From an uncultured Pseudacidovorax sp. (GTDB lineage: Bacteria > Pseudomonadota > Gammaproteobacteria > Burkholderiales > Burkholderiaceae_C): DNA of 45,389 nt. The notes below the pieces were generated by a model that was given only the letters and a program-made list of their open reading frames with translations, was not told the DNA's origin and did no database searches. Location: assembly GCF_913773995.1 (NCBI RefSeq), contig NZ_CAJYES010000182.1:1-45389 (forward strand). Direction: 5' to 3'. A program made the translations under genes and the position numbers. Below, piece by piece: positions 1,468 to 19,450 of the stretch; position 1 is the first letter of the stretch; each line of letters opens with the position of its first letter.

Positions 1468-2673
1468 ATGGAAAGCTACTACCTCGACTGGGCCAACCTG
1501 CTGCTGCGCTGGCTCCACGTCATCACCGCGATCGCCTGGATCGGTGCCTCCTTCTACTTCGTGATGCTGGACAACAGCCTCGAAAAGCCCAAGGACGCCG
1601 AGTCGCTGGACAAGGGCGTGGGCGGCGAGCAATGGGCCGTGCATGGCGGCGGCTTCTACAACATGCAGAAGTACGCGGTGGCGCCGCGCAAGATCCCCGA
1701 GCACCTGCACTGGTCCTTCTGGGAAAGCTACTCCACCTGGCTGAGCGGCTTCGCGCTCTTCACGGTGTCGTACCTGTGGAACGCCAGCACCTACCTCATC
1801 GACAAGAGCAAGATGGACTGGCAGCCCGGCGCCGCCATCGCGGTGGCCCTGGCCTTCTTCGTCGTGTTCTGGATGGTGTACGACGGCATCTGCCAGATCT
1901 TCGGCCGGCGCAAGAACGGCGACACCATCGTGGGCGTGCTCATCGCCGTCTTCATCGCTTTTGCGGCCTGGCTGGCCTGCCAGTGGTTCGCCGGCCGGGC
2001 GGCCTTCCTGCTGGTGGGCGCCATGATGGCCACGACCATGAGCGCCAACGTGTTCTTCTGGATCATCCCCGGCCAGCGCAAGAGCGTGGCGGCCCTGCGC
2101 GAGGGCAAGCCGGTCGACCCGATCCACGGCCAGCGCGGCAAGCAGCGCAGCGTGCACAACACGTATTTCACGCTGCCGGTGCTGTTCGCGATGCTGAGCA
2201 ACCACTACAGCTTCACCTACACGCATCCGCAGAACTGGATCGTGCTGCTGCTGATCATGCTGGGCGGCGCCGCCATCCGCCAGTTCTTCGTGGTGCGCCA
2301 CCGCTGGAAGCTGGGCAACGCGAAGAACCCGCTGCCCTACGCCATGCTCGGCATCGCCGTGCTAGGCCTGACCATCGTCTGGATGAAGCCCGCGCCGGTG
2401 GCGCCTCAGCCTGCTGCCGCGCAGGCTGCACCAGTGGCCTACGCCGAGGTGCAGAAGGTGTTCGAGCAGCGCTGCTACCTGTGCCACGGCGCCGCGGTGC
2501 AGATGAAGAACGTGCGCCTCGATTCGCCCGAGCAGGTGGCCGCGCACGCGCAGGCGGTCTACCAGCAGGTGGTGGTGACGAAGATCATGCCGATGAACAA
2601 CGCCACCGGCATCACCGAGGCCGAGCGGGCGCTGATCGGGCGCTGGTTCCAGTCCGGCGGAAAGACGAACTGA
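1468..2673 (+). CDS. puuD: Membrane-bound urate oxidase (urate hydroxylase) PuuD with C-terminal cytochrome c domain
   Basis: The 401-residue protein oxidises urate to 5-hydroxyisourate in the inner membrane and passes electrons to its own haem domain rather than to oxygen. The N-terminal ~310 residues carry about eight hydrophobic helices and begin MESYYLDWANLLLRWLHV, typical of the PuuD family. After a Pro/Ala-rich linker (about 311-325) comes a cytochrome c domain with CYLCH at residues 336-340 (haem c attachment) and a Met-containing stretch KIMPMNNATG as likely axial ligand. Family knowledge: PuuD replaces soluble uricase in many proteobacteria. An adjoining 8-oxoguanine deaminase and the xdhAB genes further on make it the urate-consuming step. 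The first ATG has a modest ribosome binding site (AGGG about 8 bases upstream). Length and domains are complete. Confidence 0.95.
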   Translation: MESYYLDWANLLLRWLHVITAIAWIGASFYFVMLDNSLEKPKDAESLDKGVGGEQWAVHGGGFYNMQKYAVAPRKIPEHLHWSFWESYSTWLSGFALFTVSYLWNASTYLIDKSKMDWQPGAAIAVALAFFVVFWMVYDGICQIFGRRKNGDTIVGVLIAVFIAFAAWLACQWFAGRAAFLLVGAMMATTMSANVFFWIIPGQRKSVAALREGKPVDPIHGQRGKQRSVHNTYFTLPVLFAMLSNHYSFTYTHPQNWIVLLLIMLGGAAIRQFFVVRHRWKLGNAKNPLPYAMLGIAVLGLTIVWMKPAPVAPQPAAAQAAPVAYAEVQKVFEQRCYLCHGAAVQMKNVRLDSPEQVAAHAQAVYQQVVVTKIMPMNNATGITEAERALIGRWFQSGGKTN

Positions 2674-2674
2674 C

Positions 2675-2790
2675 CCCCAGGCTTCGCGCACTTCGTGTCG
2701 CTTCGCCCACCCCCTTGCAGGGGGCACATCCTGCGGCCCGGCCCTTCGACAGGCTCAGGACAAGCCAAAGCCGGTTCCGCGGATGTCCCC
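2675..2790. repeat. Dispersed intergenic repeat (GCGGCCCGGC type) with a nested TTCGAC-type repeat
   Basis: The convergent gap between puuD and the deaminase holds a mosaic element: CCCCCTTGCAGGGGG hairpin, GCGGCCCGGC (2733-2742), then AGCCGGTTCCGCGG (2769-2782). The copy at 26847-26870 has the same two blocks almost adjacent. Here they are separated by about 26 bases containing CCTTCGACAGGCTCAGGAC, the signature of a second widespread palindromic repeat whose full form is at 12057-12100. I read this as one repeat inserted into another. Confidence 0.7.
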
Positions 2791-2816
2791 GCGTGGCCTG
2801 CTCCGCGGCCTGCCGA

Positions 2817-4211
2817 CTACGTGGTGCGCGCTGCTTCCGCCAACTGGATCGCGAGCTTGTTGTGTCGCTCCACCAGCGGCTGCAATTCCACCGTCGCCAG
2901 CTGGCCCTCCCGCACCACCACCCGCCCGTTGACCACCGTGTACGCCGCCTGCGGGCTGGCGCACAGCAGCAGGCTGGCGACGGGGTCGTGCACCGCGCCG
3001 CCGGCGAAGCCCAGGGTGCGCAGGTCGAACAGGGCCAGGTCGGCGCACATGCCGGGCGCGAGGTGACCGATGTCGCTGCGGCCCAGTACCTGCGCGCCGC
3101 CGCGGGTGGCCATGGCCAGGGCGTCGCGCGCGGTCATCTCGGCCGGGCCATGGTCGCAGCCGAAGGCGTCGAGCGATCGCCGCACCCGCGCCAGCAGCAG
3201 CGCCTGCCGGGCCTCGCCCACCATGTGCGCGCCGTCGTTGCTGGCGCTGCCGTCCACGCCCAGGCCCACCGGTACGCCGTCGTCGAGCATGCGGCGGATG
3301 GGCGCCAGGCCCGAGGCGAGCCGCATGTTGCTGCAGGGGCAGTGGGCCACACCGGTGCGGCTGCGCGCGAACAGGCCGATGCCCGCCTCGTCCAGCTTGA
3401 CGCAGTGGGCATGCCAGACGTCCTCGCCCAGCCAGCCGAGTTCCTGCGCATATTCGGCCGGCGTGCAGTTGAACTTTTCGCGGGTGAAGGCGATGTCGTG
3501 GTCGTTCTCGGCCAGGTGGGTGTGCAGGCGCACGCCATGCTGGCGGGCCAGGGCCGCGGCATCGCGCATCAGCTCGCGGCTGACCGAGAAGGGCGAGCAG
3601 GGCGCCACCGCGATGTTGACCATGGCGCCGTGGCTGCGGTCGTGCCAGGTGGTGATCAGGCGCTCGGTGTCACGCAGGATGGCCGCCTCGTCCTCCACCA
3701 CGCGGTCGGGCGGCAGCCCGCCCTTGGACTGGCCCAGGCTCATGGCGCCGCGCGAGGCGACGAAGCGCATGCCGATGGCCTGCGCGGCCTCGATGCTGTC
3801 CTCCAACCGCACGCCGTTGGGATAGATGTAGAGATGGTCGCTGCTGGTGGTGCAGCCCGACATCAGCAACTCGGCCATGGCCACCTGCGTGGAGACCTGC
3901 ACCATCTCGGGCGTGAGCCCGGCCCAGATCGGATAAAGCCCGCGCAGCCAGCCGAAGAGTTCCGCATCCTGCGTCGCCGGTATGGCACGCGTCAGCGACT
4001 GGTACATATGGTGATGGGTGTTGACCAGGCCCGGCATCACCAGGTGGCCGCGGGCATCGATCACCTCGTCGGCCTGCTGCGGCAGATCGGCGGCGGGGCC
4101 GATGGCCTCGATGCGGTGCCCGCGCACCAGCACCGAGGCATCGCGGAGTTCGGCCCGCGTGTCGTCGAAGGTCGCGACGCAGGTGGCGTTGCGGATCAGC
4201 AAAGTTTTCAT
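2817..4211 (-). CDS. 8-oxoguanine deaminase (amidohydrolase, PA0142/TRZ-ATZ type)
   Basis: A 464-residue zinc amidohydrolase that deaminates 8-oxoguanine to urate, feeding damaged guanine directly into PuuD. The metal-binding pattern is visible: NTHHHMY near residues 64-70, HTHLAEND and HAHC in the middle, and GVDGSASND carrying the Asp that activates water. The NTHHHMYQS, SDHLYIYPNG and DGSASNDG segments are those of the 8-oxoguanine deaminase branch rather than atrazine chlorohydrolase or guanine deaminase GuaD. This is family knowledge; the substrate is not provable from sequence alone. The start at 4211 is preferred over an upstream in-frame start at 4232 because AGAGGA sits 8 bases before it. 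It is convergent with puuD and divergent from glycerate kinase, sharing a 65-base promoter region. Confidence 0.88.
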   Translation of the reverse strand: MKTLLIRNATCVATFDDTRAELRDASVLVRGHRIEAIGPAADLPQQADEVIDARGHLVMPGLVNTHHHMYQSLTRAIPATQDAELFGWLRGLYPIWAGLTPEMVQVSTQVAMAELLMSGCTTSSDHLYIYPNGVRLEDSIEAAQAIGMRFVASRGAMSLGQSKGGLPPDRVVEDEAAILRDTERLITTWHDRSHGAMVNIAVAPCSPFSVSRELMRDAAALARQHGVRLHTHLAENDHDIAFTREKFNCTPAEYAQELGWLGEDVWHAHCVKLDEAGIGLFARSRTGVAHCPCSNMRLASGLAPIRRMLDDGVPVGLGVDGSASNDGAHMVGEARQALLLARVRRSLDAFGCDHGPAEMTARDALAMATRGGAQVLGRSDIGHLAPGMCADLALFDLRTLGFAGGAVHDPVASLLLCASPQAAYTVVNGRVVVREGQLATVELQPLVERHNKLAIQLAEAARTT

Positions 4212-4276
4212 CGGTACAGTCCTCTCGCCCAATCAAGGACCCGTGCATGGTCACGGCGTCCATGGAGACAACGAAC

Positions 4277-5617
4277 ATGATCGCATCCGACGCAGCCTCC
4301 GTGCCCGATCCGCGCCAGCAGCCGCAGGCCTTTCTGGAGCACCTCTACCGGGTGGCCGTGCGCCAGGCCCTGCCCCTGGCACGCATGGCCGAGTACCTTC
4401 CCCCGCCGCCGCGCGGCCGTACGCTGGTGCTCGGCGCAGGCAAGGCGGGCGGATCGATGGTGCAGGCGCTCGAGGCCCTGTGGCCGCAGGACGCGCCGCT
4501 GTCCGGCCTGGTGGTCACACGCTACGGTCACATCCCGCCGCGTCCCGAGGGCGTGCCGGCGCGCATCGAGCTGGTCGAGGCGGCCCACCCCGTGCCCGAC
4601 GCCGCCGGCCTTCGCGCGGCCGAGCGCATGCTCGCCCTGACGCATGGGCTCACGGCGGACGATCTGGTGCTGTGCCTGATCTCCGGCGGCGGCTCGGCGC
4701 TGCTCACGCTGCCGGCAGAAGGCATGACGCTGGAGGACAAGCAGCGCATCAATCGGCAGTTGCTCGAATCGGGCGCCCACATTGGCGAGATGAACTGCGT
4801 GCGCAAGCATTTGTCGCGCATCAAGGGCGGCCGGCTGGCCGCCGCCTGTGCGCCTGCGCGGGTGGTGACGCTCACCATCAGCGATGTCCCGGGCGACGAC
4901 CCGGCGGTGATCGCCAGCGGCCCCACGGTGCCCGATGGCAGCACCTGCGCGGAAGCCATCGGCATCCTGAAGCGCTATGACATCGACGTGCCCGCCCGGA
5001 TCATGGAAGGGCTGCAGGGGGGCTGCTTGGAAACGCCCAAGCCGGGCGACGCCGTGTTCACCGGCCACGCGGTGCACCTGATCGCGACGCCCCGTCAGTC
5101 GCTGGAGGCAGCGGCCGAGGCGGCGCGCGCCGCCGGAATCGAGGCCCATGTGCTCAGCGACGAGATCGAAGGCGAGTCGCGGGAGGTGGGCAAGGTGCAC
5201 GCCGCACTCGCCCGCGCGGTGGCCCAGCACGGGACACCCTTCGCGCGGCCCTGCGTGATCCTGTCAGGTGGCGAAACCACGGTGACCGTGCGCCAGCGCC
5301 CGCCCGGGAGTGCCAAGGGACGCGGCGGGCGCGCCGGCGAGTTCTGCATGGGACTGGCCGGCGCCTTGATGGGGCAGCCCGGCGTCTGGGCCCTGGCCGC
5401 CGACACCGATGGCATCGACGGCGTGGAGGACAACGCTGGCGCCTTCGTCGCGCCCGACACGCTGGCGCGTGCGGCGCAGCGTGGCCTGAAGCTGTCGGAC
5501 CACCTGGACCGCAACGACGCCTATGGCTTCTTCGACGCGCTGGGCGATCTGCTGGTGACCGGGCCGACCCACACCAACGTCAACGACTTCCGCGCGCTGC
5601 TGGTACTGCCGGGCTGA
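4277..5617 (+). CDS. ttuD: Glycerate 2-kinase (MOFRL family; often labelled hydroxypyruvate reductase TtuD)
   Basis: A 446-residue soluble kinase phosphorylating D-glycerate to 2-phosphoglycerate. N-terminal DUF4147 region: VLGAGKAGGSM near residue 51 and LISGGGSALL further on. C-terminal MOFRL region: ILSGGETTV, GRGGRAGEF and AADTDGIDGVED. The older name hydroxypyruvate reductase for this family is generally considered wrong. The start at 4277 is chosen over ATGs at 4247 and 4262 because GGAGA lies 8 bases upstream of it. It is divergent from the 8-oxoguanine deaminase. Purine breakdown through allantoin yields glyoxylate, and glyoxylate carboligase plus tartronate semialdehyde reductase make glycerate, so this gene plausibly completes carbon recovery; those two enzymes are not in the window. 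Confidence 0.9.
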   Translation: MIASDAASVPDPRQQPQAFLEHLYRVAVRQALPLARMAEYLPPPPRGRTLVLGAGKAGGSMVQALEALWPQDAPLSGLVVTRYGHIPPRPEGVPARIELVEAAHPVPDAAGLRAAERMLALTHGLTADDLVLCLISGGGSALLTLPAEGMTLEDKQRINRQLLESGAHIGEMNCVRKHLSRIKGGRLAAACAPARVVTLTISDVPGDDPAVIASGPTVPDGSTCAEAIGILKRYDIDVPARIMEGLQGGCLETPKPGDAVFTGHAVHLIATPRQSLEAAAEAARAAGIEAHVLSDEIEGESREVGKVHAALARAVAQHGTPFARPCVILSGGETTVTVRQRPPGSAKGRGGRAGEFCMGLAGALMGQPGVWALAADTDGIDGVEDNAGAFVAPDTLARAAQRGLKLSDHLDRNDAYGFFDALGDLLVTGPTHTNVNDFRALLVLPG

Positions 5618-5643
5618 TCGGGTGCAGCGCGGTCGGGCTCAGC

Positions 5644-6543
5644 TCAGGCCTGGCCGAAGATCTGTGCAGCCGGGGCCAGCCCTTCGAAGCGGGGCCTGGC
5701 GAACAGGTAGCCCTGCATCAGCTGCACGCCTTCGTGCAGGAAGAAATCGCGTTCCCCGGTGGTTTCGATGCCTTCGGCGATCACGGTGATCGCCAGTTCC
5801 TCGCACATGCGCAGGATGCCGCGCGCGATGGCCTGGCGCGGCCGGCTGGTGTCCACGCCGCGTATCAGGGCCATGTCCAGCTTGACGATGTCCGGCTGGA
5901 AATCGGCCAGCAGCGTCAGGCCTGCATAGCCGGCACCGAAGTCGTCGATGGCGGTGAGGAAGCCGCAGCGCTGGTATTCCGTCAGGATGGAGGCCAGCCA
6001 GGGCCCGTCGCTGACCCGCTCGCCCTCGGTCACCTCGAACACGATGCGCTCGCGCGGAAAGCCGTACTTGTCGGCCGCCTCGAGCGTGGTGCGGATGCAG
6101 ATCTCCGGCCGATAGACGGCCTGGGGCAGGAAGTTGATCGACAGCCGCGTGTCCATGCCCAGCCCCGCGGCGATGCGGATCGCGTTGACGCGGCAGGCCT
6201 GGTCGAAGCGGTAGCGGTTGTCGGCATTGACCTGGTCGAGCACCGTCATCGCGCCTTCCCCCTGCGGGCCACGCACCAGCGCCTCATGCGCCCAGATGGC
6301 ACGGCCTTGCATGTCGACGATCGGCTGGTAGGCGAAGCTGAAGGGAAAGAGCGGCACTTCGCTTTCCCGGCAGCCCTTGCAGCGCCCGCTGGCGGTGGAC
6401 CCGGAGCCGCCGGGGGCTGGATGGACGGCGATGGTGGGGAACATGGACACGTGGACCGCGTGTAAGGACGGCAGGGCCGGGGCGGCCATGACTTCAGGTG
6501 TCCGACCGGCTGCGAAGAAAAGGCCGCGACTGGCGGCCGTCAT
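5644..6543 (-). CDS. EAL-domain cyclic-di-GMP phosphodiesterase with N-terminal CxxC
   Basis: A stand-alone EAL domain (about residues 65-290 of 299) predicted to hydrolyse c-di-GMP. The catalytic set looks intact: EALVRG signature, Asn in SINFLP, Glu in FEVTEGE, DDFGAGY, Lys in VKLD, AEGIET and MQGYLF. There is no GGDEF partner, PAS or transmembrane segment. Just before the domain is GRCKGCRESE, a CxxC pair that I recall in similar short EAL proteins of Burkholderiales and that might bind metal or sense redox (inference). The sequence before it is low-complexity and its start is uncertain: ATGs at 6543, 6489 and 6444 are possible and none has a good ribosome binding site. It follows the thioesterase on the same strand after about 90 bases but is unlikely to share its function. 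Its end faces the glycerate kinase end, 26 bases away. Confidence 0.85.
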   Translation of the reverse strand: MTAASRGLFFAAGRTPEVMAAPALPSLHAVHVSMFPTIAVHPAPGGSGSTASGRCKGCRESEVPLFPFSFAYQPIVDMQGRAIWAHEALVRGPQGEGAMTVLDQVNADNRYRFDQACRVNAIRIAAGLGMDTRLSINFLPQAVYRPEICIRTTLEAADKYGFPRERIVFEVTEGERVSDGPWLASILTEYQRCGFLTAIDDFGAGYAGLTLLADFQPDIVKLDMALIRGVDTSRPRQAIARGILRMCEELAITVIAEGIETTGERDFFLHEGVQLMQGYLFARPRFEGLAPAAQIFGQA

Positions 6544-12117: not shown

Positions 12118-12180
12118 CGATCGTTGCGCAGTGTCCGGCGCCTGGGGCATGTCCTCAATGCAATGAAGGCGCTAAGTGAT

Positions 12181-13104
12181 ATGAACGGCGTGCATATGGA
12201 GAAGCTGGACCTCAACCTGCTGCGCGTCTTCGACGCCGTGCATCGCACCCGCAACGTGAGCCGCTCCGCAGAGGCGCTTGGGCTCACGCAGCCCGCCGTG
12301 AGCCATGGCCTGACCCGGCTGCGGCTGGCGCTGGGCGACGCACTGTTCACCCGGGTGGCTGGCGGCGTCGCACCTACGCCCAGAGCCGACCGCCTGGCGT
12401 CGGCGGTGCACGCCGCGCTGGCCACGCTGGACCAGGCCGTGGCCGAGCCCGAGCGCTTCGACCCCGCCCGATCGCGCAAGACCTTCCGCATCCACATGAG
12501 CGACATCGGCGAGGGACGCTTTTTGCCGCCGCTGATGCGGCACCTGCGCGCCCTGGCACCCGGCGTGCGGCTGGAGACGCTGCCCCTGCGGCCGCAGGAC
12601 ATCGCCCCCGCGCTCGACGAGGGCCGCATCGACCTGGCCTTCGGTTTTCTGCCCAAGGTGAAGGACACGCGGCGCCAGCACCTGCTGAACGACCGCTACA
12701 TCGTGCTGGTGCGCGATGACCATCCCTTTGCGCGTCGCACCCTGCGCGGCAAGGCACTGCTGACGGCGCTGCAGGGGCTGGAGTTCGTCGCCGTGCGCTC
12801 GCATGCCGACACGCTGCGCATCCTGCAGCTGATGCAGCTGGAGGAGCGCGTGCGTCTGGTGACCGAGCATTTCATGGTGCTGCCCGCCATCGTGCGCGAG
12901 ACCGACCTGGCGGTCGTCATGCCGCGCAACATCGCGCGCAGCTTCGGCGAGGGCGCCGGCTTCGCCATTGTGGAGCCCGACTTTCCGCTGCGCGACTTCG
13001 GCGTCGCCCTGCACTGGAGCCGCCGTTTCGAGGACGATGCGCCCAACCGCTGGCTGCGCGGCGAGATCGTGCGCCTGTTCGGGGAAGCGGGCGCACCGTC
13101 CTGA
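12181..13104 (+). CDS. LysR-family transcriptional regulator (divergent from iorAB)
   Basis: A 307-residue LysR regulator. The winged helix-turn-helix occupies residues ~8-65 (LDLNLLRVFDAVHRTRNVSR, then LGLTQPAVSHGLTRLR), followed by the effector-binding domain with two periplasmic-binding-like lobes (TFRIHMSDIGEGRFLPPL onward). Residues VSRSAEALGLTQPAVSHGL and DALFTRVAGGVAPTPRA resemble the NodD/LinR-like branch that often senses aromatic compounds. Starts at 12181 and 12196 are both possible; 12181 has AAGG about 11 bases upstream. It is divergent from iorA, the usual arrangement of a LysR activator and its target, so an arylpyruvate or arylacetate effector is a reasonable guess. Its stop is 12 bases from the convergent permease stop. 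Confidence 0.9.
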   Translation: MNGVHMEKLDLNLLRVFDAVHRTRNVSRSAEALGLTQPAVSHGLTRLRLALGDALFTRVAGGVAPTPRADRLASAVHAALATLDQAVAEPERFDPARSRKTFRIHMSDIGEGRFLPPLMRHLRALAPGVRLETLPLRPQDIAPALDEGRIDLAFGFLPKVKDTRRQHLLNDRYIVLVRDDHPFARRTLRGKALLTALQGLEFVAVRSHADTLRILQLMQLEERVRLVTEHFMVLPAIVRETDLAVVMPRNIARSFGEGAGFAIVEPDFPLRDFGVALHWSRRFEDDAPNRWLRGEIVRLFGEAGAPS

Positions 13105-13116
13105 GGCGTGGCTGGG

Positions 13117-15045
13117 TCAGTGTGCCGCTGAAGGCTGCACGTCGAAGGCCCGCAGCCGTGCCGCTGCGATGGGGTTGGCATCGGCGACGAGGTCGTCGAA
13201 GCGGTAGTTGGCGATGCGCGCCACCTCGACCAGCCCCGCCGCGCGTTCCACCGCCTTCGCGTTGCCCAGCCGTTCCCAGCCCTGCGCGACGATGCGGGCG
13301 TAGTTGGCGTCGCGGGCGCTCACGATGAAGGGAAAGCCGAACTGCGCGCGGTAGGCGTGGGCCATTTCCAGCACGTCGTCCTGGGCGTTGCCGGCCATGC
13401 CTGCCTTCTCATGGTCGAGCAAGTAGGCATTGGCGGCGTCGGCCTCGCTGCCCAGGTCGGGGAAGGCGTTCATCAGCGCATCCTGATGCTCTGCCGTGGC
13501 GCTCAGCAGCGTGTCCTGGAAGGCAGTGCGCAGGTCGTGGGTGTTGCGGAAGGGGCGCATGGCGAAGGCCTGCTCCAGCACCCAGGGCATGTGCTGCACC
13601 ACCGGGCCGAAGGTGGCGTCGAACTCCGGACGCGCCATGGCGTTGACCTGCTCCAGGCTCACCAGTCGGCCCGGCCGGCCGGCGACGGCCGTGTGCGGAC
13701 TGCCACCCAGGTGGTTGAACACGACGTTAAGCACGATGGCGGTCAACGCACCCAGCGTGATGCCGCTGCCGAACACGATCTCGGCCCAGGCCGGAAAGGC
13801 GGTCGTGACGAAGGGCTGCGCCGTCACCAGCATGCCCAGGCCCAGGCTGGTGCCCAGGATCACGATGTTGCGGTGGTCGTTGAAGTCCACCTTCGACAGG
13901 GTCTGCACGCCCACCACGGCCACGGCCGCGAACATGGCCAGCGCCGCGCCGCCCAGCACCGGATGCGGAATGCCTTCGACGATGGCGGCGGCCTTGGGCA
14001 GCGAGCCGAGCACGATCATGATGATGCCGGCGGCCACCACCACCCAGCGGCTCTTGACCTGCGTCAGCCGCACCAGGCCCACGTTCTCGGCGAAGCAGGT
14101 GTAGGGAAAGGAATTGAACACGCCGCCCAGGAAGGTGGCGGCGCCGTCGGCGCGGATGGCGCGGGCGATGTCCTCGCTGCCGACGCGCTTGCGCACGATC
14201 TCGCCTGTGGCGTAGACGTCGCCCGTGGTCTCGACCATGGTGATGCACATCACGATCAGCATCGAGACGATGGCCGTGATGCTGAAGGTGGGCATGCCGA
14301 AGTAGAAGGGCGAGGTGTAGCCGAACCAGGCAGAGCTGGCGACCTTGTCGAAATGCGCATCGCCCAGCACCCAGGCGACCAGCGTGCCGACGACCAGACC
14401 CAGCAGCACGGCCACGGTGGCCATGAAGCCGCGGAACAGCCGCTGGATCAGCACGATCAGCGCCAGCGTGCCGAAGGCATAGAGGCAGTTCTTAAGCAGC
14501 ACCGGGTTCTGGATGGCATTGGGCCCCTTGCCCACCACGATGTCGTTGGCCGCCACCGGCAGCAGCGCGATGCCGATGATCAGGATCACCGAGCCCGTGA
14601 CGATGGGCGGAAAGAAGCGGATCAAGCGCGCGAAGTAGGGCGCCGCGAAGAAGGTGAACAGCCCGGCGACGAGCACCGAGCCGTAGATCTCCAGCAGACC
14701 CGTGACGCCGCCGCCGGCCGCCAGGCCGATGGCGATCATGGGGCTGACGGCCGTGAACGTGACGCCCTGGAGCAGCGGCAACCGTACGCCCACCTTGCCG
14801 ATGCCCCAGGCCTGGAGGATCGACGCGATGCCGCAGGTGAACAGGTCAGCATTGATGAGGTGGATCAGTTGCTCGCTGCTGAGCCCCAGGGCCCCCGCCA
14901 GGATGATCGGCACCAGCACGGCGCCCGCATAGAACGCGAGCACATGCTGGAAGCCGTAGGCGGCAAGTTGGGGAATGGGCAGCACTTCATCGACGGGGTG
15001 GACCTGCCGGGTGGCAGAGGAAGAGGGTGTGACAGCGGTTTTCAT
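13117..15045 (-). CDS. NCS2 purine/urate permease fused to an OHCU-decarboxylase-like (UraD) domain
   Basis: A 642-residue two-domain protein. Residues ~25-450 are an NCS2 (nucleobase-ascorbate) transporter closest in style to UacT/XanQ: His34 in GFQHVLAFYAGAV on TM1, FNSFPYTCFAENVGLVRLT containing the NAT signature (first residue Glu rather than the Gln usual in xanthine/urate carriers), and about 12-14 helices. Residues ~461-635 match OHCU decarboxylase, the step after HIU hydrolase in urate breakdown: VNAMARPEFDATFG, MPWVLEQA, RPFRNTHDL, HEKAGMAG and FGFPFIVSARD. The HPDL motif of UraD, whose His is catalytic (His67 in the zebrafish enzyme), reads AFPDLG here (Phe528), while Glu546 and Arg578 remain. 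The fused domain may therefore be inactive or work differently. Start 15045 has AAGAG-like sites upstream. Divergent from xdhA. Confidence 0.9.
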   Translation of the reverse strand: MKTAVTPSSSATRQVHPVDEVLPIPQLAAYGFQHVLAFYAGAVLVPIILAGALGLSSEQLIHLINADLFTCGIASILQAWGIGKVGVRLPLLQGVTFTAVSPMIAIGLAAGGGVTGLLEIYGSVLVAGLFTFFAAPYFARLIRFFPPIVTGSVILIIGIALLPVAANDIVVGKGPNAIQNPVLLKNCLYAFGTLALIVLIQRLFRGFMATVAVLLGLVVGTLVAWVLGDAHFDKVASSAWFGYTSPFYFGMPTFSITAIVSMLIVMCITMVETTGDVYATGEIVRKRVGSEDIARAIRADGAATFLGGVFNSFPYTCFAENVGLVRLTQVKSRWVVVAAGIIMIVLGSLPKAAAIVEGIPHPVLGGAALAMFAAVAVVGVQTLSKVDFNDHRNIVILGTSLGLGMLVTAQPFVTTAFPAWAEIVFGSGITLGALTAIVLNVVFNHLGGSPHTAVAGRPGRLVSLEQVNAMARPEFDATFGPVVQHMPWVLEQAFAMRPFRNTHDLRTAFQDTLLSATAEHQDALMNAFPDLGSEADAANAYLLDHEKAGMAGNAQDDVLEMAHAYRAQFGFPFIVSARDANYARIVAQGWERLGNAKAVERAAGLVEVARIANYRFDDLVADANPIAAARLRAFDVQPSAAH

Positions 15046-15205: not shown

Positions 15206-15418
15206 AGTTAAATGTCATTAACGTCGCGATACGCCACGCAAGAGTTGTGCCTCCCAACGGTCGCGCCGTTGGCGTGAAAACTGCTGGGCATCAGGTCGTG
15301 TCTCCGGCCGCCATACGGATTGCCAGATGGGCGATATGGTTGGACCGGTATCTACGGACGCGAGACTGCGAATAACTTCACGGCCGCCCTGCGCGTTGCA
15401 CCGCGGCGGCCCCGCCCG

Positions 15419-17014
15419 ATGCCCCAAAACAGTTCCATGACCCACACCACCCAACCCATCCAGTTCTTCCACCGCGGCCGCGTGGTGGCGGTCGACGGCG
15501 TGCATCCGACCCGGTCCGTGCTGGACTGGCTGCGCGAGGACGCACGTTGCACCGGCACCAAGGAAGGCTGCAATGAAGGCGACTGCGGCGCCTGCACCGT
15601 GGTCATCGGCGAGCTGGCCGCTGACGGCGAGGCCGGTGCCGTCGGCGGGTTGAAGCTGCAGACGGTCAATGCCTGCATCCAGTTCCTGCCCACGCTGCAT
15701 GGCAAGGCGCTGTTCACCGTCGAGGACCTCAAGGCGCAGACGGCCTGCGTGCACGACGGCGAGCGGCATTCCAAGCATCCGGTCCAGCAGCTGCACCCGG
15801 TGCAGCAGGCCATGGTGGACTGCCATGGCTCGCAGTGCGGCTTCTGCACGCCAGGGTTCGTGATGTCGATGTGGGCCAGCTACGAGCAGCATGGTGCCCG
15901 CGGCAGCCGGCCCACGCGCCAGCAGCTCGCCGACGAGCTGTCGGGCAATCTGTGCCGCTGCACCGGCTACCGGCCCATCCTCGATGCGGGTCAGAAGATG
16001 TTCGATCTTCCGCCGGTCAAGCTGGACACGGCGCCGGTGGTGCAGGCGCTGCAGGCACTGCGCAGCGAGGCCACCTTCGACTACACCGCGCCCCTGGGCC
16101 AGCGCACCGACCACTTCCATGCACCGGTCAGCCTCGAAGCCTTCGCCGAACTGCGGGCAGCCAAGCCGCAGGCGAGGCTGCTGGCGGGCTCCACCGACAT
16201 CGGCCTGTGGGTCAACAAGCAGTTCCGCGATCTGGGCGACATCCTCTACATCGGCAACGTGCCCGAGCTCAAGCGCATCGACCTGGTGGAGCAGGACGAG
16301 CTGTGGATCGGCGCTGCGGTCTCGCTGGAGGACGCCTGGTCCGCCATCGTGCAACGCGCCCCCTCGTTGCAGGATGTGTGGCTGCGCTTCGCCTCGCCGC
16401 CGATCCGCCATGCGGGCACGCTGGGCGGCAACGTGGCCAATGGCTCGCCCATCGGCGACTCGCCGCCCATCCTCATGGCGCTCGATGCCGAGGTGGAGCT
16501 GCGCAAGGGCCACTGCGTGCGCCGCATGCCGCTGACCGATTTCTACGTGGATTACATGAAGAACCAGCTGCAGAGCGGCGAGTTCGTGCAGGGCATCGCC
16601 CTGCCGCTGATGGCCTTCCAGCGCCAGTTGCGCGGCTACAAGATCAGCAAGCGCTTCGACTGCGACATCTCGGCCCTGTGCGCCGGCTTTGCGCTGGAGC
16701 TGGATGGCGAGGTGGTGCGCAGCATCCGCCTGGCCTACGGCGGCATGGCCGCCACCGTGCGCCGTGCCACGCAGGCCGAGGCTGCGCTCGTGGGCAGGCC
16801 CTGGACGCAGCAGGCGGTGGACGCCGCCAAGGCCGCGCTGGCCCAGGACTTCAAGCCGCTGACCGACCTGCGGGCCTCTGCCGACTACCGGCTGCAGGTG
16901 GCGCAGAACCTGCTGCAGCGATTCTGGCTCGAGACGCGCACGCACGAGCCGCTGGAGGCGCAGGACACCAGCGTCTGGACGGTGATGCCCCACGCCCCTG
17001 CCTTCGGAGCCTGA
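15419..17014 (+). CDS. xdhA: Xanthine dehydrogenase small subunit (2Fe-2S and FAD)
   Basis: The iron-sulfur/flavin subunit of the two-subunit bacterial xanthine dehydrogenase, oxidising hypoxanthine to xanthine to urate with NAD+. The plant-type 2Fe-2S domain has CNEGDCGAC (C51, C56, C59 with this start). The second cluster domain has CGFCTPGF and CRCTGYRPI. The FAD domain starts near residue 215 and shows LLAGSTDIGLWV and ASPPIRHAGTLGGNVANGSP. About 531 residues, slightly longer than the family norm. Starts at 15419 and 15437 (MTHTTQ) are both possible; neither has a visible ribosome binding site. The operon partner xdhB starts 3 bases after the stop. The upstream TTATATG elements probably regulate it. 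Confidence 0.94.
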   Translation: MPQNSSMTHTTQPIQFFHRGRVVAVDGVHPTRSVLDWLREDARCTGTKEGCNEGDCGACTVVIGELAADGEAGAVGGLKLQTVNACIQFLPTLHGKALFTVEDLKAQTACVHDGERHSKHPVQQLHPVQQAMVDCHGSQCGFCTPGFVMSMWASYEQHGARGSRPTRQQLADELSGNLCRCTGYRPILDAGQKMFDLPPVKLDTAPVVQALQALRSEATFDYTAPLGQRTDHFHAPVSLEAFAELRAAKPQARLLAGSTDIGLWVNKQFRDLGDILYIGNVPELKRIDLVEQDELWIGAAVSLEDAWSAIVQRAPSLQDVWLRFASPPIRHAGTLGGNVANGSPIGDSPPILMALDAEVELRKGHCVRRMPLTDFYVDYMKNQLQSGEFVQGIALPLMAFQRQLRGYKISKRFDCDISALCAGFALELDGEVVRSIRLAYGGMAATVRRATQAEAALVGRPWTQQAVDAAKAALAQDFKPLTDLRASADYRLQVAQNLLQRFWLETRTHEPLEAQDTSVWTVMPHAPAFGA

Positions 17015-17017
17015 ACG

Positions 17018-19450
17018 ATGAACAAGCCGATCGACCCCGCCCTGCTGCAGTCCGCCGAGGCCTTCGCCGACTACGCCGCCAACACGGCCGCCCGCATCGA
17101 CACCCAGGCCGAGGCCCAGGCGCTGGCCCAGGGCGCCCGTGTGGGCATCAGCCGTCCGCACGAATCCGCCCACCTGCATGTGGCCGGCGAGGCCACCTAC
17201 ACCGACGATCTGCCCGAGCTGGCCGGCACCCTGCACTGTGCCCTCGGCCTGTCAGCCGTGGCGGCCGGCCGGCTGGAAGGGCTGGACCTGGACGCCATCC
17301 GCGCGATGCCCGGCGTGGTGGACGTGATCGTGGCCGAGGACATTCCGGGTGCCAACGACTGCGGCTCCATCGTGCATGACGATCCTGTTCTGTGCGACGG
17401 CGAGATCCGCTTCCTCGGCCAGCCGCTCTTCGCCGTGATCGCCCGCACCCGCACCGAGGCCCGCCGCGCCGCCGCGCGCGCCAAGGAGGTCGCGCGTGTG
17501 GTGCCCGCCGAGCCGGTACTGACGCCCCAGCAGGCCCATGCCCGCGGCCAGTACGTGGTGCCGCCCATGCACCTGGCCCGCAGCGACAAGGGGCTGGCCG
17601 TGCGCGCCGCCATCGAGGCCGCGCCGCACCGCCTCAAGGGCGAACTCGACGTCGGCGGTCAGGAACAGTTCTACCTCGAAGGCCAGATCAGCTACGCCAT
17701 TCCCAAGGAAGGCGGGGCGATGCAGGTCTACTGCTCGACCCAGCATCCCACCGAGATGCAGCACCTCGTGGCGCATGCGCTGCACCTGCATTCCAACGAG
17801 GTGCACATCGAATGCCGACGCATGGGCGGGGGCTTCGGCGGCAAGGAGTCGCAGTCGGGCCTGTTCGCCTGCATCGCCGCCGTGGCGGCCAACAAGCTGC
17901 GGCGCCCGGTCAAGCTGCGTCCTGACCGCGACGACGACTTCCTGATCACCGGCCGCCGGCACTGCTTCTGGTACGAGTATGAAGTGGGCTTCGACGACGA
18001 GGGCCGCATCCTCGGCGCCGAGATCAGCATGGTCTCGCGCGCCGGCCATTCGGCCGATCTCTCGGGCCCGGTGATGACCCGCGCCCTGTGCCACTTCGAC
18101 AATGCCTACTGGCTGCCCGAAGTGAGCATGCATGGCTTCTCGGGCCGCACCAACACGCAGAGCAACACCGCCTTCCGCGGCTTCGGCGGGCCGCAGGGCG
18201 CCATCGCGGTCGAATACGTGCTCGACTCCATCGCCCGTCAGCTGGGTCGCGATGCGCTGGATGTGCGCCGCGCCAATTTCTACGGCAAGACCGAGCGCAA
18301 CGTCACGCCCTACGGCCAGACGGTGCGCGACAACGTGATCCACGAGCTCGTCGGCCAGCTCGAGGATTCGAGCGCCTACCGCGCGCGGCGCGATGCCATC
18401 GCGGCCTTCAATGCAAAGAGCCCGGTGCTCAAGCGCGGCATGGCGCTCACGCCGATCAAGTTCGGCATCAGCTTCAACGTGCCGCACTTCAACCAGGCGG
18501 GTGCGCTGGTGCATGTCTACACGGATGGCTCCATCCTGGTGAATCATGGTGGCACCGAAATGGGGCAGGGCCTGAACACCAAAGTGGCGCAGGTGGTGGC
18601 GCATGAGCTGGGCGTGGAATTCGAGCGCGTGCGCGCCACGGCCACGGACACCACCAAGGTGGCCAACACCTCGGCCACCGCGGCATCGACCGGCGCCGAC
18701 CTCAACGGCAAGGCGGCGCAGGACGCTGCACGCCAGATCCGGCAGCGGCTGGCCGACTTCGCCGCGCGCCGGCATGGCGGCACGCCCGACGCGGTGGGCT
18801 TCGCCAACGGCAAGGTGCAGGTGGCCGGGCGCGAGATGACCTTCGCCACGCTGGTGGCCGAGGCCTACACCGACCGTGTGCAGCTGTGGTCCGACGGCTT
18901 CTACAGCACGCCCGGCCTCCACTGGAACTCGCAGACCATGCAGGGCCATCCCTTCTACTACTTCGCCTACGGTGCCGCCGTCAGCGAGGTGGTCGTCGAC
19001 ACCCTGACCGGCGAATGGAAGCTGCTGCGCGCCGACGTGCTGCACGACGCCGGCCGCTCGCTCAACCCGGCGGTGGACATCGGCCAGGTCGAAGGCGCCT
19101 TCATCCAGGGCATGGGCTGGCTCACCACCGAGGAGCTGGTCTGGCATCCGGGCAACGGCAAGCTGCTCACGCATGCGCCCAGCACCTACAAGATTCCGAC
19201 GGCCAACGACTGCCCCCCTGTGTTCAACGTGCGGCTCTTCGATGGGCCCAATGCCGAGGATTCCATCCACCGCAGCAAGGCCGTGGGCGAGCCGCCGCTG
19301 CTGCTGCCCTTCTCGGTGTTCTTCGCCATCCGCGATGCCGTGTCGGCCGCAGGGGGTCACCGGGTCGATCCGCCGCTGCGGGCACCCGCCACCAGCGAGG
19401 CGATCCTGCGTGCCTTGAACGCGGTCCAGGCCGCGCCGTCGGCCGCCTGA
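17018..19450 (+). CDS. xdhB: Xanthine dehydrogenase large subunit (molybdenum-binding)
   Basis: The 810-residue molybdopterin subunit that forms the active site with XdhA. Signature elements in order: ARVGISRPHESAHLHVAGEA N-terminal start of the aldehyde-oxidase fold, MGGGFGGKESQ for cofactor contact, RTNTQSNTAFRGFGGPQG with the substrate-orienting Arg, GTEMGQGLNTKVAQV, and KAVGEPPLLL with the catalytic base Glu758. All look intact, so an active enzyme is expected. It is coupled to xdhA (3-base gap). The operon then runs into a LysR gene; xdhC, the factor that inserts sulfurated molybdenum cofactor and usually follows xdhB, is not next to it nor elsewhere in this window. Confidence 0.95.
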   Translation: MNKPIDPALLQSAEAFADYAANTAARIDTQAEAQALAQGARVGISRPHESAHLHVAGEATYTDDLPELAGTLHCALGLSAVAAGRLEGLDLDAIRAMPGVVDVIVAEDIPGANDCGSIVHDDPVLCDGEIRFLGQPLFAVIARTRTEARRAAARAKEVARVVPAEPVLTPQQAHARGQYVVPPMHLARSDKGLAVRAAIEAAPHRLKGELDVGGQEQFYLEGQISYAIPKEGGAMQVYCSTQHPTEMQHLVAHALHLHSNEVHIECRRMGGGFGGKESQSGLFACIAAVAANKLRRPVKLRPDRDDDFLITGRRHCFWYEYEVGFDDEGRILGAEISMVSRAGHSADLSGPVMTRALCHFDNAYWLPEVSMHGFSGRTNTQSNTAFRGFGGPQGAIAVEYVLDSIARQLGRDALDVRRANFYGKTERNVTPYGQTVRDNVIHELVGQLEDSSAYRARRDAIAAFNAKSPVLKRGMALTPIKFGISFNVPHFNQAGALVHVYTDGSILVNHGGTEMGQGLNTKVAQVVAHELGVEFERVRATATDTTKVANTSATAASTGADLNGKAAQDAARQIRQRLADFAARRHGGTPDAVGFANGKVQVAGREMTFATLVAEAYTDRVQLWSDGFYSTPGLHWNSQTMQGHPFYYFAYGAAVSEVVVDTLTGEWKLLRADVLHDAGRSLNPAVDIGQVEGAFIQGMGWLTTEELVWHPGNGKLLTHAPSTYKIPTANDCPPVFNVRLFDGPNAEDSIHRSKAVGEPPLLLPFSVFFAIRDAVSAAGGHRVDPPLRAPATSEAILRALNAVQAAPSAA

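Follow-up and report, generated by a model that had tools for sequence, protein, structure and literature searches.

A purine permease fused to a UraD-like domain that lacks the catalytic histidine: a candidate pseudoenzyme regulator of transport in Pseudacidovorax and actinobacteria

Introduction

In a stretch of 45,389 nucleotides from an uncultured Pseudacidovorax sp. (contig NZ_CAJYES010000182.1; the window, hereafter), one gene joins an NCS2 permease of the PbuX type to a C-terminal domain derived from UraD, the OHCU decarboxylase of urate catabolism, and the catalytic histidine of that domain is replaced by phenylalanine. As the histidine is gone in every fusion that we found, the domain would be a pseudoenzyme. 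Judged from its residues, it would not decarboxylate OHCU at a useful rate and is very probably not the OHCU decarboxylase of the cell, a task that would be left to a separate, His-bearing UraD. We propose that, on the cytosolic side, the domain binds a metabolite of the pathway (OHCU, allantoin or urate), and that this binding would adjust the transport of urate or xanthine to the downstream flux, by analogy with the STAS domain on the related SulP carriers. Taken as a whole, this statement of a pseudoenzyme tail that gives metabolite-responsive regulation of transport is a prediction of function from sequence, to which we give slightly less than an even chance. Its more specific form, a built-in metabolite gauge in which the His-less UraD fold senses the unstable urate intermediate OHCU, or the product made from it, and restricts the uptake of urate or xanthine accordingly, the working UraD being a separate protein that is often encoded by the next gene, is put forward more tentatively.

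The fusion gene and its neighbourhood

The fusion gene (13117-15045, minus strand; protein P0001) is an uninterrupted frame with an ATG start that encodes 642 amino acids. Its permease part matches PF00860 over residues 26-411 (E 1.8e-103; 13813-14970, minus strand, coordinates taken from the frame), and the best NCBIfam model for it is that of the PbuX xanthine permease, TIGR03173, which is matched over its full length (1-407 of 407) with 507.1 bits for a cut-off of 414.15. The UraD-like part matches PF09349 over residues 468-616 (13198-13644, minus strand), covering profile positions 1-154 of 155 (E 5.6e-31; 108.6 bits for a cut-off of 24), and scores 86.5 bits on the NCBIfam UraD equivalog-domain model TIGR03164, under the cut-off of 96.25. 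An NCS2 carrier and an OHCU-decarboxylase-like domain do therefore share one intact frame, as the original prediction had it. The entire permease domain is present, and whereas unfused PbuX-type relatives end in a short tail (7 of the 7 that were read), the fusion adds about 180 residues that form a domain. The C-terminus of NCS2 carriers lies inside the cell, so the UraD-like domain is expected to be cytosolic.

A gene for a LysR-family regulator (12124-13104, plus strand) lies convergent to the fusion gene, in the same order as in a second genus of the family (locus L038). On the other side, and divergent from it, are the genes of a XdhA-like small subunit of xanthine dehydrogenase (15320-17014, plus strand; an open reading frame whose start is not settled) and of a XdhB-like large subunit (17018-19450, plus strand). 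The gene context, with xdhAB adjoining here and uraD, uraH and uricase genes adjoining in Rhodococcus qingshengii, would fit a carrier of urate or xanthine. The window and the second genus have xdhAB beside the fusion, unlike two other Pseudacidovorax genomes (L033 and L037; P. intermedius DSM 21352, G177), in which no xdhAB match lies in the stretches of 10 and 18 kb fetched around the gene. Elsewhere in the window, at 1468-4232, a gene for a PuuD-type membrane urate oxidase (PF06181; 1468-2673, plus strand) is followed by a convergent amidohydrolase gene, whose product shares 26% identity with an amidohydrolase of the purine cluster of R. qingshengii; this pair shares the window with xdhAB and the fusion gene. 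At 4247-6543, a MOFRL/DUF4147 protein, which we take to be glycerate-kinase-like, is encoded beside an EAL-domain protein.

A reworked pocket in a preserved fold

We number positions by the chain of zebrafish UraD (2o70), which has its His at chain position 67 and its Glu at 87; we take these two to be the key catalytic residues of UraD, and the roles of the pocket positions 84, 87, 88 and 161 are likewise assumed from general knowledge. Phe528 of the window's protein (13462-13464, minus strand, from the frame), in the motif AFPDLG, aligns with His67 in a phmmer comparison with 2o70, in a profile-profile alignment and in multiple alignments. The places of Glu87 and Gln88 are taken by Asp544 and His545 (13411-13416, minus strand; profile-profile and multiple alignments), and that of Arg161 by Arg615 (13201-13203, minus strand; multiple alignments). 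Glu546 and Arg578 had been named beforehand as the UraD residues that remain: the arginine of position 161 is indeed retained, but as Arg615, Arg578 corresponding to zebrafish Arg124, and Glu546 corresponds to Ser89, a variable position, so that it is Asp544 that matches Glu87.

We compared 17 distinct fusions, counted after merging the loci of one genome and including one (L039) with a permease part truncated at the end of its contig, with 45 unfused UraDs. At position 67 the fusions have Phe (12) or Tyr (5) and never His, against His in 45 of 45 unfused proteins, or in 45 of 46 when a Tyr67 paralogue from the actinobacterium G1070 is included. The unfused set also leaves out a duplicate (C_L001) and nine A_ rows that are the same proteins as nine S_ rows; its 27 C_ rows are top-scoring matches and no random sample, and were trimmed around the HP motif, which is present in 27 of 27, none being lost thereby. 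The replacement of the catalytic His by Phe528 in AFPDLG is thus strongly supported: Phe or Tyr occupies the position across all the fusions (Phe alone in 12/17), and the outcome named in the original prediction as speaking against it, a His filling position 67 in some alignment, did not occur. A sequencing error or a change in a single strain was considered and rejected, given Phe or Tyr in 17 distinct fusions from separate records.

Of the positions that hardly vary in unfused UraD (90% invariance or more), six are altered in the fusions, namely 67, 84, 87, 88 and those of window residues 562 and 479 (Leu in UraD). Ser84, found in all 45 unfused proteins, is kept in 4/17 fusions; Glu87 (45/45) has become Asp in 15 and stays Glu in 2, an acid being present in every one; Gln88 (45/45) is His in 13 and Gln in 4; and the Asn at 562 (45/45) is Ala in 13, Thr in 3 and Asn in 1. 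Arg161 is kept throughout (17/17 fusions, 45/45 unfused). Among the invariants of the fold type, Pro498, Phe499 and Arg615 are conserved in 17/17 fusions, and Trp488, Arg497 and Arg592 in 16/17; none of the 17 has a premature stop in the matched UraD-like stretch. Read from these alignments, the pattern is that of a pocket that has been reworked and a fold that has been preserved. The fusions also have residues of their own, Gln484 and Arg506 (17/17) and Gly589 and Trp590 (16/17), together with a C-terminal tail in which A621, A623, N624 and P625 each occur in 16/17, the exception being the Rubrobacter fusion. The piece ADANP (621-625; 13171-13185, minus strand) belongs to this tail, and is atypical of unfused UraD.

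A structural model of the domain, made with five sequences, reached a pLDDT of 68 and a pTM of 0.64 (a model of the whole protein, with a pLDDT of 37, was unusable). At E < 0.01, Foldseek matched it in the PDB to OHCU decarboxylases, allantoin synthase and Atu2327 only, all of one family; the TM-scores, normalised by query length, were 0.47-0.58, and the rmsd values 5.6-9.4. By this modelling, the assignment of the OHCU-decarboxylase fold is sound and the model is too coarse for detail of the pocket.

The new residues at 87 and 88 raise the possibility that the domain is still an enzyme, with His545 and Asp544 standing in for His67 and Glu87 and OHCU or a related ureido compound as substrate. 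The Asp-His pair is found in 13/17 fusions, that is, in every one of the 12 Phe67 members and in a single Tyr67 member, and both Arg161 and the fold are retained, which would suit catalysis. Yet four fusions, those of Rubrobacter, L074, L075 and L076, combine Tyr67 with Gln88 and so have His at neither place (positions 67-84-87-88 read Tyr-Ser-Glu-Gln in Rubrobacter and L074, and Tyr-Ser-Asp-Gln in L075 and L076). As these four fall outside the clade of 13 described below, catalysis would have to have been lost and then regained. Moreover, Ser84, invariant in the unfused rows, is gone in 13/17 fusions, and a His-bearing UraD accompanies the fusion wherever this could be checked. We therefore regard a rebuilt enzyme as improbable. 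That Arg161 and an acid at 87 persist in each of the 17 fusions speaks more for a ligand pocket than for a mere scaffold, and, like a pocket that is rewired and not decayed, would fit a domain that binds a metabolite and regulates the carrier.

Distribution of the fusion

The 17 fusions come from Pseudacidovorax, the second genus of its family, actinobacteria and Rubrobacter. The architecture is rare and patchy: of 399 genomes sampled from the window's family, four, which represent two genera, carry it (the permease part being checked in 32 loci), and, within its own genus, it was found in 2 of 6 genomes among the matches listed from that draw. At the cut-offs used, draws from the order (399 genomes) and the phylum (398 genomes) each returned one fusion, in both cases from the window's own genome; three of the four profile matches in the phylum draw, considered as fusions, were rejected as ordinary HPEL UraDs. 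Two short peptide patterns run against named species genomes led to four loci, in Pseudacidovorax sp. NFM-22, P. intermedius DSM 21352, a proteobacterial metagenome assembly and a Microbacteriaceae bacterium. In the class of this Microbacteriaceae genome (G786), the domain profile found the fusion in 10 of 394 genomes, G786 counted; a full-length search of 389 genomes of that class recovered the same ten and added no other fusion, the match spanning both parts in nine of them and the permease part in one (G927).

Two plasmid records also carry it, from R. qingshengii (annotated as solute carrier family 23) and Rubrobacter radiotolerans (annotated as uraD). In the plasmid collection, 35 records cover 80% of the query, and the 60 records listed out of 526 include 24 of these: two single-gene fusions, three in which permease and uraD are annotated as neighbouring genes, 18 from Leisingera or Ruegeria with separately annotated genes, and one from Acinetobacter whose match stops at residue 543.

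No fusion that keeps HPDL, which had been named beforehand as the other outcome against the prediction, was found in the 399 order genomes (full-length protein, cut-off 1e-60, at most three candidates scored per genome), in the 389 genomes of G786's class (cut-off 1e-100, again at most three candidates per genome) or among the matches listed from the plasmid collection (24 of the 35 records covering 80% of the query); these searches reach PbuX-type permeases, and fusions with distant permeases would be missed. Where permease and uraD are unfused neighbours, the His is retained in both pairs read (Priestia and Deinococcus sp. QL22).

A separate UraD with histidine

Each of the 16 genomes or records that could be checked has a further UraD, one that bears the His. 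The genome of the window is among them, and the question of a second uraD that came with the original prediction is thereby answered: the gene (G000:C190:93535-94020) has HPEL intact, is joined to an AllC-like hydrolase and lies beside PuuE and UraH, on another contig than the fusion. Among eleven loci (L067-L077, from R. qingshengii and the ten genomes of G786's class found by the domain profile), nine have uraD and then uraH directly after the fusion gene, six of these with a uricase match within the fetched stretch. At the other two (L074 and L077) no uraD is nearby, and their genomes carry one elsewhere. The Rubrobacter plasmid has no second PF09349 match and no uraD adjoining the fusion, as far as the plasmid itself extends. 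Despite a fusion and a His-bearing UraD, G786 has no match to uricase (PF01014) or PuuD (PF06181), so the link to urate is not universal by those two models. Two actinobacterial loci, L075 (10272-11645) and L076 (5498-6838), have a second, unfused NCS2 permease gene between that of the fused one and the uricase gene.

The order of genes at the nine loci favours a different function, that of a docking or assembly module. The pseudo-UraD would pair with a catalytic UraD or with itself and gather the enzymes of the pathway around the carrier, where urate would be passed along and unstable intermediates would be processed next to the membrane; the fusion-specific Q484, R506 and G589-W590 and the tail around ADANP could form the contact surfaces. 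However, the catalytic UraDs encoded beside the fusions of actinobacteria fall in a distant branch (HPRIG type), and the candidate partner in Pseudacidovorax is the UraD-AllC fusion at another locus, so that one conserved docking surface is not obvious. Docking also has no need of Arg161 and of the acid at 87, which all 17 fusions keep. We consider this role unlikely, though less so than renewed catalysis, and continue to prefer a domain that would respond to a ligand.

The G1070 paralogue left out of the unfused set (L127; G1070:C109:153882-154328) is the third UraD-like protein of that actinobacterium. It has Tyr67 (YPDIG), keeps Ser84, Glu87 and Gln88, and lies in an open frame of 376 amino acids in which no permease was recognised by eye; it is possibly a second, independent pseudo-UraD.

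Origin and selection

In quick, midpoint-rooted trees, the fused domains form one clade of 17 (SH-aLRT 99), so the loss of the His counts as about one event and not 17. Beside this clade stands the unfused uraD of Deinococcus sp. QL22 (97), which keeps the His and whose gene overlaps that of the permease by four bases (L118, 3049-4958), plausibly a precursor-like state of the fusion. The permease tree, made without L039, places the Deinococcus carrier with the group to which all of its 16 fused carriers belong (86). Based on these trees and on present-day neighbours, a uraD immediately downstream of a gene for a purine permease is the probable ancestor of the UraD-like domain. In the permease tree the fused carriers are interspersed with six unfused ones, so the tail was lost there or the fusion arose more than once.

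Within the fusions, those with Asp-His at 87-88 form a clade of 13 (SH-aLRT 99), 12 with Phe67 and one, L068, with Tyr67; the branching order of L074, L075/L076 and the 13 has a support of 3. L068 is nested in the clade (91), so the change from Tyr to Phe happened twice or reverted once, and the path from His through Tyr to Phe would be reachable by single base changes (CAC, TAC, TTC). The proteobacterial fusions group with the Microbacteriaceae fusion (87 in the domain tree and 92 in the permease tree; a further tree leaves this unresolved), which suggests a transfer of the fusion, presumably from actinobacteria to proteobacteria. If the domain is a gauge, that gauge would be conserved from Rubrobacter through other actinobacteria to Pseudacidovorax.

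The UraD-like domain is under purifying selection, weaker than that on the permease. Comparison of the window with two congeners gives a dN/dS of 0.27 and 0.35 for the domain, against 0.06-0.07 for the permease, and the two congeners compared with each other give 0.17 and 0.06; wider pairs give 0.48 for the domain and 0.24 for the permease (second genus), and 0.44 and 0.34 (Microbacteriaceae). The constraint on the domain is thus moderate, as its dN/dS is four to five times that of the permease between congeners and in view of the values for the wider pairs. This faster evolution, along with the existence of related carriers that have no tail, would fit a passive leftover of gene fusion that folds, does no harm and has no other role. 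Against this, the domain is conserved in 17 sequences of distant bacteria, with clade-specific residues and a tail that extends beyond the PF09349 match, dN/dS between congeners is well below 1, and the matched stretch is free of stops. A passive leftover is accordingly very improbable. From the sequences, we would rank a sensing role first, followed by docking, a rebuilt enzyme and a leftover.

Relation to known systems

With UraD, or OHCU decarboxylase (PF09349; zebrafish 2o70, Klebsiella 3o7h), the fused domain shares its fold, sequence family, Arg161, RPF motif and acid at position 87. It differs in having Phe or Tyr at 67 and, in most fusions, alterations of Ser84, Glu87 (to Asp) and Gln88 (to His), and also in being attached to a permease while a separate UraD with His is present. 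UraD-AllC and the plant UraD-UraH fusions likewise combine a UraD domain with a partner of the same pathway. In the UraD-AllC protein of the window's own genome, the UraD keeps its His, whereas the fusion described here has a carrier as partner and has lost the His. The UraD of the plant fusion, TTL, was reported to be active (PMC2834698).

Carriers that bear a cytosolic regulatory or sensing domain are a familiar kind, SulP/SLC26 carriers with their cytosolic STAS domain being one example. SLC5/STAC sensor kinases are reported to join a carrier to a sensing module (PMC9100948). Compared with these, the NCS2-UraD fusion is distinct in that its appended domain derives from a downstream catabolic enzyme. 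Both a carrier with a cytosolic domain and a pseudoenzyme are known as kinds, and it is their combination within one pathway that is new. In the open-access literature, with subscription papers mostly outside it, we found no description of an NCS2-UraD fusion; domain databases may list the architecture.

In this fusion an enzyme would have become a non-catalytic component of a transporter that serves its own pathway, a clear example from nature of such a change, with an apparent series that runs from the overlapping genes of Deinococcus sp. QL22, with His, through the Tyr67 members to the Phe67 members. Should the domain be a sensor of OHCU or allantoin, it would reveal a way in which bacteria balance the uptake of urate against the removal of unstable intermediates. 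There is also a warning for annotation, in that the R. radiotolerans fusion (L116, 4983-6980; NZ_CP007515.1) is labelled as the uraD OHCU decarboxylase and yet lacks the catalytic His, its motif being YPDL.
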